Shown piece after piece: positions 49,436 to 63,006 of a DNA stretch of 64,000 nt; the stretch's first letter is position 1; each line of letters opens with the position of its first letter. Source of the stretch: Nostoc sp. S13 (lineage in GTDB: Bacteria; Cyanobacteriota; Cyanobacteriia; Cyanobacteriales; Nostocaceae); the NCBI RefSeq assembly GCF_029379315.1, contig NZ_JAQYWQ010000019.1, forward strand, positions 1 to 64,000. Direction: 5' to 3'. Under the pieces are notes generated by a model, which saw nothing but the letters and a program-made list of their open reading frames with translations, searched no databases and was not told the DNA's origin. The position numbers and the translations under genes are program-made.

Positions 49436-49631
49436 AAGAGCGATAAATCATCCGCGACTTTGGAAGGCGGAAGATACTAAACGCCACGGAAACTTACTAA
49501 ACTTTCGCCTAGTAAGTTTCCTCCTCCAAGTGGGTTGCTCCAGGTAGCAGAAGGCGACAGTCGGAAGGCAAAATGTATATCTATCCTTCCTTCCGTCATT
49601 TGGCTGTTTGTTAGCCCGATTTTGCTCAAAT

Positions 49632-52319
49632 ATGCTTCATCCAGTTCTGCCACCCGATCCGCCTCCTATTCTCGAATCTTTACAACCTGTAAATCCCGCC
49701 TCATCTGCTAGTCATACAAAGTTTCTTTCAGGTGTAGATACTGGAATACACGAAAAGACAGACAAATCCAAGCAGCCCAAGAATTTGGCTCAGTTGGTAA
49801 TTGCGGGTAACACCAAGAGTGATCCGCCATTGCCACCTTTGCTCAACTCAACTCAGGATGACTTGGTAGTTGCCAAAACTTCCTCTGTACCTCATTCACC
49901 AGAAACCTTACCACTTGAATTTTCCCCCCTCACCGTTTCTAGGAATGCTGGACTTTTGGGGCAGTCTGTGGTAGTTGGTTATCCCATGCAAGAGGTTGCA
50001 GCCCCTAATCGCCATAAGACCAGTGAAACTCAAAACCCTTATGCAGCGCGAATTGGGGTAGAGGGTGAGAAACTTCCCCCATTCTCCCTGCTTCCTGCTC
50101 CTCAGCCTCCGCTAGACGTTGCTCCAAGTGTCACAAACACTGACAAGTTAGTTGAGTCGAAGGCGGAAATTTTAGCCCAGAAGTTAACCCAACAAAAACA
50201 GCAAAGTGATATTACTACACAACAGTCTCCAGGAGGAGGCAATATCGCTGTATCTGCTGCTGATCTTGCACCGAGTTCTCAATCAGTACAAAATTTTATA
50301 AAATTTAAGTCTCGCAACCCGACAAACCAATTCTGGGCACCCATCACTGTAGAATTCAAGTCCCAAACCCAACAAATTCAAGCAGCAACGCCTACACCAC
50401 AGGTTAATACCACTAATCAGCCACAAGGTCAACCATCTGGTACAACTGCGCCAGCTAGCACGCCACCAGCCAGACCGAGAATTGTGGAAGTTACTTCCGA
50501 TCGGCAAGAGTATGACGAGCAACGGCGAATTGTTACAGCCGTAGGTAATGTAGTTGTGCGATTTGATGGGGCGGTGGTGGATGCCGATCGCCTGCAAGTC
50601 AATTTGGACAACTTGATCGCTGCGGGGGAAGGCAATGTCACTTTAACACGGGGTGATCAGATACTGCATGGACAACGCTTTACCTATAACTTTGTTCAAG
50701 ATAGTGGAGAACTGGAAAATGGTAGAGGAGAAATTTACGTACCCTCAGCACAAACAGATTTTGCTTTTTCACCCACGGATGTAGCTGGTGGAGTCTCAAA
50801 ACGTCCGCCAAGCGATCGCATTAGAGCTAATCAGCCCCTTTCAGGTGTGAGCAGCCCTGGAGGAATTGATGTGACATTTGGTGGTCAGGCAGGCGCTACC
50901 AACATACCAGCACCGAAATCAGGGGGTGTAGTCAATCGGCTCAGGTTTGAAGCTGAACACATTGACTTTTATCCGCAAGGCTGGCAAGCAAGCGATGTCC
51001 GCATCACCAATGATCCTTTTTCGCCCCCAGAACTAGAATTACGCGCAAATAAAGTAACTCTAACGCGAGAGAAACCCTTGGTAGACCGCATCAGGACACA
51101 GGGACAGCGTTTGGTATTGGATCAAACATTGTCCTTACCAATTCCGGTGGATGAGCATACTATTGACCGCCGAGAGCGGGACGTTACACCTGCAATAGTC
51201 TCTCCCGGCTATGATGGAACTGATCGGGGTGGTTTCTATGTTGAGCGTGGCTTTCCAGTGATCAATACAGACCAGACTAGTTGGACGATCACGCCCCAGT
51301 TATTAGTACAGAGAGCTGTGCAAGAAGGCGCGGGTGATTTAGGCGCACTATTTGCAGTGAAGACGAAGATAAATTCCGTTTTGAGTCCACGGACAACATT
51401 TCAGGGAACTGGGCAGTTAACCAGTTTTGACTTGAGCCAGGTGGAAAACAATTTGCGGGCGAATTTTGCGTTGCGCCAGACATTAGGCGATCGCCTTCCC
51501 TACATCTTTAATCTGCAATATAACTACCGCGATCGCCTCTACAATGGTAGCCTCGGCTTTCAAACTGTCCAGAGCAGTTTTGGCGGCATTATTACCTCTC
51601 CGGTGATTCCTCTAGGAAAAAGTGGCATCAACCTCACCTATCAGGCTAGTGCTCAATATATCGATGCCAACACCGATCGCCAAGACTTACTAAAACCGCA
51701 GCGTGAAAACGATCGCATCTCACTAGGTCGTTTACAAGCCAGCGCTACCCTCAGTCGTGGACTGTTACTCTGGCAAGGAAAACCATTACCACCCACTGCC
51801 AGTGAGGGATTACGATACACGGCTAGACCTGTAGTTCCTTACTTGCTAGCGATCGCTAGCCTCACAGGCACTAGCAGTTATTACAGCAATGGTGATAACC
51901 AAAGCATTTTAACTGGCACAATTGGCTTACAAGGTCAAATTGGTCATTTTTCTCGACCTTTTTTCGACTATACCGCCTTTAATATTAGTTATTCCCAAGG
52001 CTTAAATAGCGGATTATCACCCTTTTTGTTTGATCGCTCCGTTGATAACAAAGTGTTGAGCGGTGGGATATCACAGCAAATCTACGGCCCTTTTCGCTTA
52101 GGCTTCCAAACATCTGTTAACTTGGATACTGGTATACAAACTAGCACTGACTACATTTTGGAATATAGCCGTCGCACGTATGGCATCACCTTGCGTTACA
52201 ATCCGGTGCTGGAGTTAGGTGGCTTCAGCATCAGAATTAGTGATTTTAACTGGGGTGGCGGTACTGATCCATTTTCTGATGTTAAGCCAGTAGTAAATGG
52301 CGTGCAACAGGATAATTAG
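49632..52319 (+). CDS. LptD-like outer-membrane protein (DUF3769)
   Basis: An 895-residue protein. The first 280 residues are Pro/Gln-rich and low in complexity. Residues about 285-380 form an OstA/LptA-like domain (RIVTAVGNVVVRFDGAVVDA, GEGNVTLTRGDQILHGQRFTY). The C-terminal 500 residues are a DUF3769 beta-barrel with alternating aromatic strands. This is the cyanobacterial counterpart of LptD, which inserts lipopolysaccharide into the outer membrane. The ATG at 49632 is preferred; an in-frame TTG is at 49608. No classical signal peptide is obvious, so the true start may differ. Confidence 0.82.
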   Translation: MLHPVLPPDPPPILESLQPVNPASSASHTKFLSGVDTGIHEKTDKSKQPKNLAQLVIAGNTKSDPPLPPLLNSTQDDLVVAKTSSVPHSPETLPLEFSPLTVSRNAGLLGQSVVVGYPMQEVAAPNRHKTSETQNPYAARIGVEGEKLPPFSLLPAPQPPLDVAPSVTNTDKLVESKAEILAQKLTQQKQQSDITTQQSPGGGNIAVSAADLAPSSQSVQNFIKFKSRNPTNQFWAPITVEFKSQTQQIQAATPTPQVNTTNQPQGQPSGTTAPASTPPARPRIVEVTSDRQEYDEQRRIVTAVGNVVVRFDGAVVDADRLQVNLDNLIAAGEGNVTLTRGDQILHGQRFTYNFVQDSGELENGRGEIYVPSAQTDFAFSPTDVAGGVSKRPPSDRIRANQPLSGVSSPGGIDVTFGGQAGATNIPAPKSGGVVNRLRFEAEHIDFYPQGWQASDVRITNDPFSPPELELRANKVTLTREKPLVDRIRTQGQRLVLDQTLSLPIPVDEHTIDRRERDVTPAIVSPGYDGTDRGGFYVERGFPVINTDQTSWTITPQLLVQRAVQEGAGDLGALFAVKTKINSVLSPRTTFQGTGQLTSFDLSQVENNLRANFALRQTLGDRLPYIFNLQYNYRDRLYNGSLGFQTVQSSFGGIITSPVIPLGKSGINLTYQASAQYIDANTDRQDLLKPQRENDRISLGRLQASATLSRGLLLWQGKPLPPTASEGLRYTARPVVPYLLAIASLTGTSSYYSNGDNQSILTGTIGLQGQIGHFSRPFFDYTAFNISYSQGLNSGLSPFLFDRSVDNKVLSGGISQQIYGPFRLGFQTSVNLDTGIQTSTDYILEYSRRTYGITLRYNPVLELGGFSIRISDFNWGGGTDPFSDVKPVVNGVQQDN

Positions 52320-55729: not shown

Positions 55730-58700
55730 ATGGAACTCAATTCAAATTTCACGGAAAATCAACTTCTCTTGTCAAGCGCTCAACTTCAAGAGCAACTAGA
55801 GCAACAAAAGGCTCTGGCGAGTGTAATTGTGCGAATTCGGGAGTCTCTTGACTTAGAAACAATTTTTCAAACGACCGTTACCCAAGTGCGTCAGTTGCTA
55901 AATGCTGACCGTGTAGCAGTCTTCCAGTTTGACGTGGAAAAAGATTGGGAAGGAGAATTTGTTTGTGAGGATGTTGCAGCTGGCTGGGACTTAGCAATGA
56001 CAGTAAAAGTTTACGATCACTGCTTTGGAAAACAATTTGCTGCCAGTTATCAACAAGGTCAAGTGCAAGCAGTAGCAGATATTTACAAGGCGGGACTGAG
56101 TGATTGTCATCTGGCAATTTTGAGTAAATTTCAGGTACAGGCCAACCTTATTGTCCCTCTATCGCGGCAGAAAGAACTGTGGGGATTGCTTTGCATTCAT
56201 CAGTGCAGTGAGGCTCGTGACTGGAAAGAATCGGAAATTGAGTTTATTCGTCAAATTGCTGACCATCTTTCCATTGCAATTCAACAAGCGAAGCATCTTC
56301 ATGAAGTCCAATTGCAAGCCACAAAATTGGCTCAAGCAGTTCAACGCGACCAAGTAATAGCTCAGATTGTTGATGAAATTCGTTCACCCATTGATATTGA
56401 AACCATCTTTAAAACCACAACTCAAGAAATACGCAAGCTGCTGCAAGCTGATCGAGTTGCCATCTTTAGCTTCAATCCAGATTGGAGTGGTAACTTTGTT
56501 GCTGAATCATTTGCGCCAGGCTGGACTCCCTTAGTTGGCTTTCAGCCTGCGATCAGTGATACTTATTTACAAAACACGCAAGGTGGACGTTACGTTGACA
56601 ACCAGACATTTACAGCTAATGACATTTATCAAGCCGGATTAACAAAGTGCCATATAACCCTGTTAGAGCAATTCCAGGCAAAATCCTTTGCAACTGCCCC
56701 CATTCTCCAAGGAGATCAACTTTGGGGAGTCATCGCTGCCTACCAAAATGCCTCACCCAGACAGTGGCAATCTTATGAAGTCGAATCACTGACCAAAATC
56801 GGCACACAAATTGGTTTAGCACTGCGACACTATAAGTTGCTGGCATACGCTCAGTACCAAGCAGAGCAACAAAAGACATTAACTAGCGTGATTACTCGAA
56901 TTCGGGAGTCCCTAGATTTAGATACAATCTTCCAAACGACTGTCACCGAGGTACGACAAATGCTGCAAGCAGACAGAGTGACAGTCGTTCGTTTTGACCC
57001 TCAAAAAGATTGGGAAGGAGAATTTATTTCTGAGGATGTTGTACCTGAATGTAACTCGGTAATAACAGAAAAAGTTTATGATTATTGCTTTGGTGAAAAC
57101 TTTGCGACCCTTTACGCACAAGGTCGAATAAATGCGATCACTGACATTTATCAACAAAACTTTTCACGTTGCTACGTCCAAATCCTAGAGAAATTTCAAG
57201 TGCGTGCAAATATGGTCGCGCCTCTATTAAAAAAAGGCGAACTTTGGGGATTGCTGTGTATTCACCAATGTAACGCTCCTCGTGACTGGCAACCCTCTGA
57301 AATTGAATTTACCAGTCAAATAGCCCAGCAATTGGGAGTCGCATTAAAACAGGATTCTTATTTAAAGCAAGTTCAAATGCAGGTTGTCCAGTTAGCAGAA
57401 GCCACCGAACGGGAGAAATCAATGGAACGACAAGAACTGCTGGCTGCAACTATTGATAAAATCCGCCAGTCACTCGATATTAAAACTATTTTTAGAACCA
57501 CTACTCAAGCTGTGCGAGAGTTGCTGGAAGTGGAGCGAGTTGCAATCTACCGCTTCAACCCGGATTGGAGCGGTAAATTTGTAGCAGATTCCTTTAAAGA
57601 TGGTTGGAAACCTCTTGCACAAGCCCAACCAATGATTAGAGAGAGTTTTGAAGAGACAGACGACGATAACGAACTTCCGCGTAACGAAACCTTTGTTCCG
57701 ATTCGGGAAGGTGAAAAACTATGGGGATTATTAGTTGCTTATCAAAATTCCCAACCGCGTTATTGGAAAGAGGAAGAAATTAATTTACTGGCTCAAGTAG
57801 GGGTGCAATTTGGAATTGCAATTCAGCAAGCGGAATTACTCGAACAAACTAAACGTCAAACCTTAGAACTTACTCAAGCTCTGCAAGAATTAAAACAAAC
57901 TCAGACTCGGTTAATTCAGGGTGAAAAAATGGCATGTTTAGGACAACTACTTGCTGGAGTCGCGCATGAAATCAACAATCCTATCAGTTTTATTTTTGGC
58001 AATCTTACCCATTTAAATGAATATACTCAAGAATTGCTAAATGTAGTGAAACTTTACCGTCAAAACTCCTCCCTGTTGCCAACTGTCCAACAGCAAATTG
58101 ACAAGACTGATTTGGACTTTATCATCGAAGATTTACCCAAAACCCTTGAGTCAATGAAAGTAGGAACAGAGCGTATTTGTGAGATTGTGCTATCACTGCG
58201 TAACTTTTCTCGTACAGATGAGGTGGAATTGAAGCCAGTAGACATTCATGAAGGATTGGATAGTACTTTGCTAATCTTAGGGCATCGCCTCAAAAATAAT
58301 AATAAACGCCCAGCTATTGAGATTGTTAAAGAATATGCTACTTTACCTTTGCTCGAATGCTATCCCGCGCAATTAAATCAAGTGTTTATGAATCTTTTGA
58401 GTAACAGTATTGATGCATTAGAGGAGAAGCTTAAAATTATACAGCAAAGGTATTTGGAGTTATCCCAAATGTGTCCGAGAATACCGTTGACTATCTGGAT
58501 TAGTACCCAAGCCGTTAATAACCAGATTGTAATTAAAATAGCTGATAATGGTCTGGGGATTCCAGAAGAGGTGCGATCGCACATTTTTGACCCCTTCTTC
58601 ACTACCAAAGCACCAGGTAAAGGTACAGGGTTAGGATTATCTATCAGTTATCAAATAGTGGTTGAAAAACATCATGGTCAGATTAAATGTTTCTCTAAAC

Positions 58701-58747
58701 CAGGAGAAGGAACAGAGTTTTTAATTGAAATCCCCAGCAGTAATTAA
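55730..58747 (+). CDS. Four-GAF sensor histidine kinase, cyanobacteriochrome-like
   Basis: A 1005-residue soluble kinase. Four GAF domains span about residues 30-190, 210-370, 380-545 and 570-705. A short coiled coil and a histidine kinase core follow: H746 in [10 protein letters not shown]-box [13 protein letters not shown]1 [12 protein letters not shown]2 [21 protein letters not shown]1 has D96-H-C-F99 and C126-H; GAF3 has D451-Y-C-F454 and C481-Y. Each Cys pair is 28 residues apart, as in DXCF cyanobacteriochromes. GAF2 has C307-H but no DXCF; GAF4 lacks the Cys segment. Bilin-based light sensing is therefore likely. No receiver domain or response regulator is adjacent. Confidence 0.88.
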
Positions 58748-62709: not shown

Positions 62710-63006
62710 ATGGACATTATTAGCTTTGAGCCTCTCGCCAAGACAATGGCAATCGAGTCTATTACTGCCTATCAAAAATATATTTCTCCGTCCAAAGGAT
62801 TTTGTTGCCCCCATCGCTTATTACACGGCGGGGATTCCTGCTCTAATTACGTCAAACGGATGCTGAACGAACAGAAGCTGCACCAAGCCGTACAATCATC
62901 CATAAAAAGATTTCAAGAATGTGCGGCAGCTAGCAACACTTTAACAAGCATCAAAACTAAAGCCGATTTCCGTTGTATTGTCATCCCCTGCTGCTTACCT
63001 CTTTAA
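62710..63006 (+). CDS. yidD: Membrane protein insertion efficiency factor YidD
   Basis: A 98-residue YidD protein. YQKYISPSKGFCCPHRLLHGGDSCSNYV is the family core (two membrane-proximal Cys clusters), followed by RFQEC and IPCCLPL. YidD helps YidC insert proteins into the inner membrane. The start at 62710 gives 12 residues more than most homologues; an ATG at 62746 (MAIESITAYQ) matches their length better. Confidence 0.85.
   Translation: MDIISFEPLAKTMAIESITAYQKYISPSKGFCCPHRLLHGGDSCSNYVKRMLNEQKLHQAVQSSIKRFQECAAASNTLTSIKTKADFRCIVIPCCLPL

Follow-up and report, generated by a model that had tools for sequence, protein, structure and literature searches.

How many bilin chromophores could a single soluble kinase of Nostoc sp. 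S13 carry, and which kinds of light would it report? The question is raised by P0001, a gene in the window analysed here (64,000 nucleotides of contig NZ_JAQYWQ010000019.1), which the original prediction had read as a kinase with several GAF domains, two of them cyanobacteriochrome domains of the DXCF class. Our main reading, to which we give a probability of about three in four, is that P0001 is a soluble multi-chromophore cyanobacteriochrome histidine kinase. Multi-GAF cyanobacteriochrome kinases are already a known kind of protein, and P0001 is another member.

Domain layout and genomic setting of P0001

Pfam recognized four GAF stretches, HisKA and HATPase_c in P0001 (Table 1). The HATPase_c match reached 82.3 bits and the HisKA match was weak (22.4 bits vs a Pfam cut-off of 26.9), with H746 present in 20/20 aligned rows covering its position. 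The histidine kinase that had been predicted is supported by a phospho-acceptor histidine and an ATPase domain, with HisKA below cut-off. No PHY domain follows the GAF domains, i.e. at E <= 0.001 Pfam gave only GAF families, HisKA and HATPase_c, and of the 71 NCBIfam families matched, none among the 25 matches listed reached its curated cut-off. Since the highest 19-residue Kyte-Doolittle mean is only 1.18, no membrane span is suggested, which agrees with the soluble protein originally proposed; a membrane receptor was ruled out for want of a hydrophobic span. The joints between the domains measure 60, 53, 66 and 68 residues; a heptad register rule was considered, the first two being one heptad apart, but the others do not fit and no rule is claimed.

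Table 1. Features of P0001 (window coordinates; aa, residues of the protein)
Feature	Coordinates	Strand	Basis
P0001 CDS, four-GAF histidine kinase, 1005 aa, ATG start	55730..58747	+	ORF, Pfam
GAF1 (aa 27-190), cyanobacteriochrome domain of the DXCF clade	55808..56299	+	Pfam, alignment, tree, models
GAF1 D96-H-C98-F99, DXCF motif with second Cys	56015..56026	+	alignment, conservation
GAF1 C126-H127, canonical bilin Cys	56105..56110	+	alignment, conservation
GAF1 C155, lineage-marking third Cys, at the position of AnPixJg2 A350 / TePixJ I551 (numbers by count)	56192..56194	+	
GAF2 (aa 207-372), XRG-clade GAF	56348..56845	+	alignment, tree
GAF2 I275-S-D277-T-Y-L280, WXDXXL with Ile for Trp	56552..56569	+	alignment, conservation
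GAF2 C307-H308, canonical bilin Cys	56648..56653	+	PDB match, conservation
GAF3 (aa 382-545), cyanobacteriochrome domain of the DXCF clade	56873..57364	+	Pfam, tree, models
GAF3 D451-Y-C453-F454, DXCF motif with second Cys	57080..57091	+	alignment, conservation
GAF3 C481-Y482, canonical bilin Cys, Tyr replacing His	57170..57175	+	alignment, conservation
GAF3 C510, third Cys, equivalent of C155	57257..57259	+	alignment
GAF4 (aa 568-706), XRG-like, without the block bearing the canonical Cys	57431..57847	+	alignment, tree
HisKA-like stretch (aa 738-791), phospho-acceptor H746	57941..58102	+	Pfam, conservation
HATPase_c domain (aa 879-1003)	58364..58738	+	Pfam

A Pfam scan of seven neighbouring ORFs between 49608 and 62631 found MurJ, pentapeptide repeats, LytR-CpsA-Psr (LCP), nucleotidyl transferase, an OMP beta-barrel and DUF3769, as well as a 101-aa ORF without a match. 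From position 52000 on, the window holds 15 ORFs of at least 80 aa, and of the seven outside the scan, six overlap with larger genes and the last lies at 62710-63006. None of the seven ORFs scanned looked like a response regulator; the gene for the partner regulator of the kinase probably lies elsewhere. The DUF3769 protein (49608-52319, 903 aa) gave a strong match to that family (669.6 bits), together with weak LptD_N and LptC matches.

The genome itself contains two heme oxygenase and three bilin reductase (Fe_bilin_red, PF05996) matches over cut-off, and bilin precursors are therefore expected. These genes speak against a reading in which the GAF domains are bilin-free in the cell and their cysteines sense a small molecule or the redox state; GAF is a general ligand-binding fold, but cyanobacteriochromes head the PDB matches by both sequence and fold, with phytochromes next, and we regard this reading as highly improbable.

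Two other proteins of the same genome carry DXCF domains. One, on contig C208 (L116), has four GAFs, of which three carry DPCF and Cys-His, and among the Pfam matches listed only GAF families exceeded their cut-offs; several DXCF domains per protein are thus not peculiar to P0001. The other, on contig C238 (L112/L136), is a kinase-like paralogue; one of its GAFs (DHCF, Cys-His) shares 59 % identity with GAF1, and others resemble the XRG (extended red/green) type.

The DXCF domains GAF1 and GAF3

In the ORF translation, the residues on which the DXCF reading had been built are all in place, i.e. D96-H97-C98-F99 with C126-H127 in GAF1 and D451-Y452-C453-F454 with C481-Y482 in GAF3, and in both domains the two cysteines lie 28 residues apart. 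A chance motif was ruled out by shuffling the protein: only 42 of 100,000 shuffles contained at least one D-x-C-F plus a Cys 28 residues after its own Cys, and the real protein has two. Nevertheless, the spacing says little by itself, since AnPixJg2 shows the same distance with His where the second Cys would be, and it is the homologous placement that decides.

This placement was obtained by aligning the domains to characterized cyanobacteriochromes, as the original prediction had advised. C98/C126 of GAF1 and C453/C481 of GAF3 align on C494/C522 of TePixJ, with no gap between the blocks running from the DXCF motif to the canonical Cys, and the AlphaFold models of both domains superpose on 4glq, 6oap and 3w2z (register by count from the range ends). 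Judged from the alignment, both pairs thus occupy the pocket positions of TePixJ, and the models retain this register rather than moving the cysteines out of the bilin pocket.

TePixJ, a blue/green DXCF cyanobacteriochrome of Thermosynechococcus (PDB 3vv4/4glq/6p58), resembles GAF1 and GAF3 in fold and register, with 41 and 35 % identity, respectively. Its Asp492, Cys494, Phe495 and Cys522 are matched by both domains and its His523 by GAF1, while GAF3 has Tyr at the latter position; Ile551 is Cys in both, and there is a two-residue insertion upstream of the motif. The output also differs, being a chemotaxis protein in TePixJ and a kinase in P0001. By sequence, the top PDB match of both domains was a dual-sensor histidine kinase (6oap/6oaq/6ob8), which we take to be PPHK and which was also among the top matches by fold; here the GAF sits within a histidine kinase as in P0001, but its motif is DQYF instead of DXCF and it therefore lacks the second Cys.

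The phylogenetic relationship was estimated from 80 rows, i.e. 69 domains from loci L031-L110 and 11 seeds, the domains of L001-L030 being omitted as close copies. GAF1 and GAF3 fall inside a clade of 33 rows (support 100/97), of which 31 have DXCF, the others being GAF1 of L035 (HHYF) and one L045 domain (DRCV). Clustering in a clade that is nearly all DXCF agrees with the class originally assigned to them; the possibility that they are XRG domains with a regained second Cys was ruled out by this separate, supported clade. TePixJ, on a long branch, and three further rows with DXCF (L048, L049 and L051) belong to neither the DXCF nor the XRG clade. Since no DXCF domain other than TePixJ in the alignments and the tree has known photochemistry, the colour of GAF1 and GAF3 is predicted from a distant model. 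No lineage with a measured photocycle was found for them, and the 80 loci include no sequence of Nostoc punctiforme PCC 73102; DXCF domains were reportedly the subject of Rockwell 2012 and Rockwell 2015.

Our survey of 164 near-complete GAF domains from ORFs of 110 loci, many rows being orthologues, contained 96 with DXCF. In 50 of these the residue after the canonical Cys is His, in 39 it is Tyr and in three another residue; four lack the Cys. Within P0001, His stands beside the canonical Cys in GAF1 (H127) and GAF2 (H308), and GAF3 has Tyr (Y482) as do 39/96 DXCF rows, many of them orthologues.

A third cysteine, C155 in GAF1 and C510 in GAF3, lies in an LLCIHQC block in the alignment column of AnPixJg2 A350 and TePixJ I551 (numbers counted along the chains, A350 being reached by counting 61 from the AnPixJg2 Trp). 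Cys occupies this column in 93/96 DXCF rows vs 6/68 other rows (29/32 vs 4/37 for the named loci alone). The exceptions L048, L049 and L051 fall outside the clade of GAF1 and GAF3, so that all 33 of its rows have the third Cys; this pocket-side residue marks the clade.

To follow these residues among close relatives, we compared the 24 proteins with four GAFs, P0001 included, four of which are partial and two of which (L014 and L032) may come from one strain, with positions counted among rows having a letter. In GAF1, C98 and F99 are kept in 23/23, Asp at position 96 in 21/23 (Asn in the other two), C126 in 22/23 and H127 in 19/23 (another residue in four). The sole loss of C126 is a Tyr in L018, a gene whose frame is broken close to where the kinase begins. 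In GAF3, D451, C453, F454, C481 and Y482 are each found in 23/23. Median dN/dS values relative to P0001 were 0.25 for GAF1, 0.30 for GAF2, 0.175 for GAF3, 0.10 for GAF4 and 0.17 for the kinase, the comparison taking in 15 of the other 19 four-GAF proteins of full length and omitting L012, L037 and the two that have an insertion (L011 and L013). All five domains tested are thus under constraint, GAF4 the most.

The same figures bear on whether GAF3 is the only working two-Cys photosensor, with GAF1 binding bilin poorly or singly and mainly supporting the array. The GAF1 motif is the loosest of the set, varying at positions 96, 97, 126 and 127, that of GAF3 varies solely at 452 (in 1/23), and the median dN/dS is higher for GAF1; on the other hand, GAF1 of P0001 has every motif residue, its two cysteines are almost invariably kept and its dN/dS is well below 1. 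Besides, binding may survive without the His, because the solved cyanobacteriochrome RcaE (8k9o) has Cys-Leu at the canonical Cys-His place. We consider it unlikely that GAF3 works alone, and our main reading keeps both domains as photosensors.

Typical DXCF domains make phycoviolobilin from phycocyanobilin, and their second Cys is bonded to C10 in the blue-absorbing dark state until photoconversion breaks the bond, as described in PMC11284453 and PMC6955287. In P0001, phycocyanobilin would attach to C126, C307 and C481; in the dark, C98 in GAF1, and probably C453 in GAF3, would add to C10 of the bilin and cause blue absorption, and light would flip C15=C16, the second bond breaking to leave a green- to orange-absorbing state. 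GAF1, with Cys-His, probably converts its bilin to phycoviolobilin. Cys-Tyr may favour phycocyanobilin, and GAF3 may keep it, the bilin being less certain here than for GAF1.

Alternatively, GAF1 and GAF3 could bind bilin without a reversible second-Cys bond and undergo green/teal or orange/green instead of blue/green cycles. There are precedents in PMC11284453, where the DXCF domain AM1_6305g1 forms phycoviolobilin without its second Cys and Trp-less XRG domains cycle green/teal without a second bond, and C155 and C510 could interfere from the D-ring side. Yet with the second Cys and Phe in 23/23 relatives, and Asp in 21/23 (GAF1) and 23/23 (GAF3), so strong a retention would make an idle second Cys hard to explain, and such cycles seem to us rather doubtful.

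GAF2 and GAF4

The best match of GAF2 was NpR6012g4 (E 7.8e-56, 51 % identity). With this domain and AnPixJg2 (48 %), both red/green members of the XRG group (PDB 6bhn and 3w2z), it shares the Cys-His pair as well as the Asp and Leu of WXDXXL (D277 and L280), with Ile (I275) in place of the Trp. The canonical C307-H308 expected in this domain is present and kept in 24/24 four-GAF proteins; none of the 24 has Trp at the motif position, 22 having an aligned Ile, and L011 and L013 carry a seven-residue insertion just ahead of DTYL. Since WXDXXL was not found, i.e. the motif reads I275-S-D-T-Y-L, we call GAF2 an XRG-clade domain and not a typical red/green cyanobacteriochrome. In the tree, GAF2 and GAF4 belong to an XRG clade of 32 rows that includes AnPixJg2, NpR6012g4 and Slr1393g3 (support 100/99), GAF4 being flagged as a long branch.

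With Ile replacing the motif Trp, a typical red/green cycle is not to be assumed for GAF2, whose tuning positions are Ile, Thr and Ala. According to PMC11284453, there are XRG domains in which Cys takes the place of this Trp, such as the CXDXXL domains MBD0393953g and WP_106260381g2, which, compared by published motif, share the missing Trp as well as Thr and Ala with GAF2 but have Cys where it has Ile. The same source describes two Trp-less XRG GAFs with Cys/Thr/Ala that bind phycocyanobilin and have yellow- or orange-absorbing dark states, and two with Val and Ile that form phycoviolobilin and are green/teal. Our literature search for IXDXXL found no paper carrying the motif. By analogy, GAF2 should bind phycocyanobilin, with its dark state blue-shifted from red towards yellow or orange in the absence of the Trp.

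In GAF4, the alignment shows that the whole block with the canonical-Cys helix is absent. A decaying relic is not favoured, considering that its median dN/dS is the lowest. Up to three bilins are expected on P0001, as had been predicted, because GAF1-GAF3 hold a canonical Cys and GAF4 is without the Cys-helix block. The conformations of the three sensors would then travel along the helices joining the GAF domains, through GAF4, and set the autophosphorylation of H746.

Four-GAF and five-GAF forms of the kinase

Homologues of P0001 at E <= 1e-150 occur in 28 of the 59 genomes searched, its own included, i.e. in 28/35 of the same genus and 0/24 of other families; further named relatives come from Dendronalium (L037, four GAFs), Plectonema (L034, five) and Richelia (L035, five). 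The four-GAF L031 is 92 % identical to P0001, and the C-terminal stretch of L032 is identical to that of G020. Five-GAF relatives such as L033 (Nostoc sp. ATCC 43529) agree with P0001 in domain types and kinase, and carry one further DXCF GAF, which has DHCF and Cys-His and lies behind GAF2, ahead of the Cys-Tyr GAF. Among the five-GAF relatives at a greater distance, individual domains lack their Cys or motif: GAF2 of L034 has Ser-His and GAF1 of L035 has HHYF with Cys-Asp.

L033 also occupies the same locus as P0001, sharing the MurJ, pentapeptide and LCP neighbours with the four-GAF L031 and L032. The neighbourhood differs in other relatives: L037 shares just MurJ and an OMP-like flanking ORF, and L034 and L035 share none of the flanks.

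In a midpoint-rooted tree built from the C-terminal part common to all, the 20 four-GAF proteins group together (90/77). Adjoining them are eight proteins of the genus that have five GAFs (99/97), and the five-GAF proteins of Plectonema and Richelia branch outside; in the GAF tree, the extra GAFs of L033, L034 and L035 cluster (95/74). The simplest reading is that the line of four-GAF proteins has lost one DXCF unit. What argues against a single loss is that GAF2 of the four-GAF L037 clusters with that of the five-GAF L033 (97/92), so that recombination or two losses are possible. The joint ahead of the Cys-Tyr GAF in L034 has 53 residues, equal to the GAF2-GAF3 joint of P0001.

A bolder proposal, which we hold to be quite unlikely, is a three-colour kinase with at least one undescribed photocycle, in which an Ile-type XRG GAF2 is combined with DXCF GAFs whose D-ring-facing C155 and C510 are chemically active, e.g. 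by attachment-site switching or thiol-redox control. If this were true, Nostoc strains would have their colour integration retuned relative to one another as whole GAF units are lost or gained at one fixed locus.

What P0001 adds to the known kind is slight, i.e. the natural four/five-GAF pair, the third Cys and a GAF2 of the Ile type. The last two, the Cys being clade-wide, are concrete sites at which spectral tuning could be tested. To our knowledge, cyanobacterial photobiology has yet to settle how a kinase with several photosensors merges them into a single output. Because nature provides a four-GAF and a five-GAF version of this kinase at one locus, differing by one DXCF unit, sensor integration is testable by comparing close orthologues.
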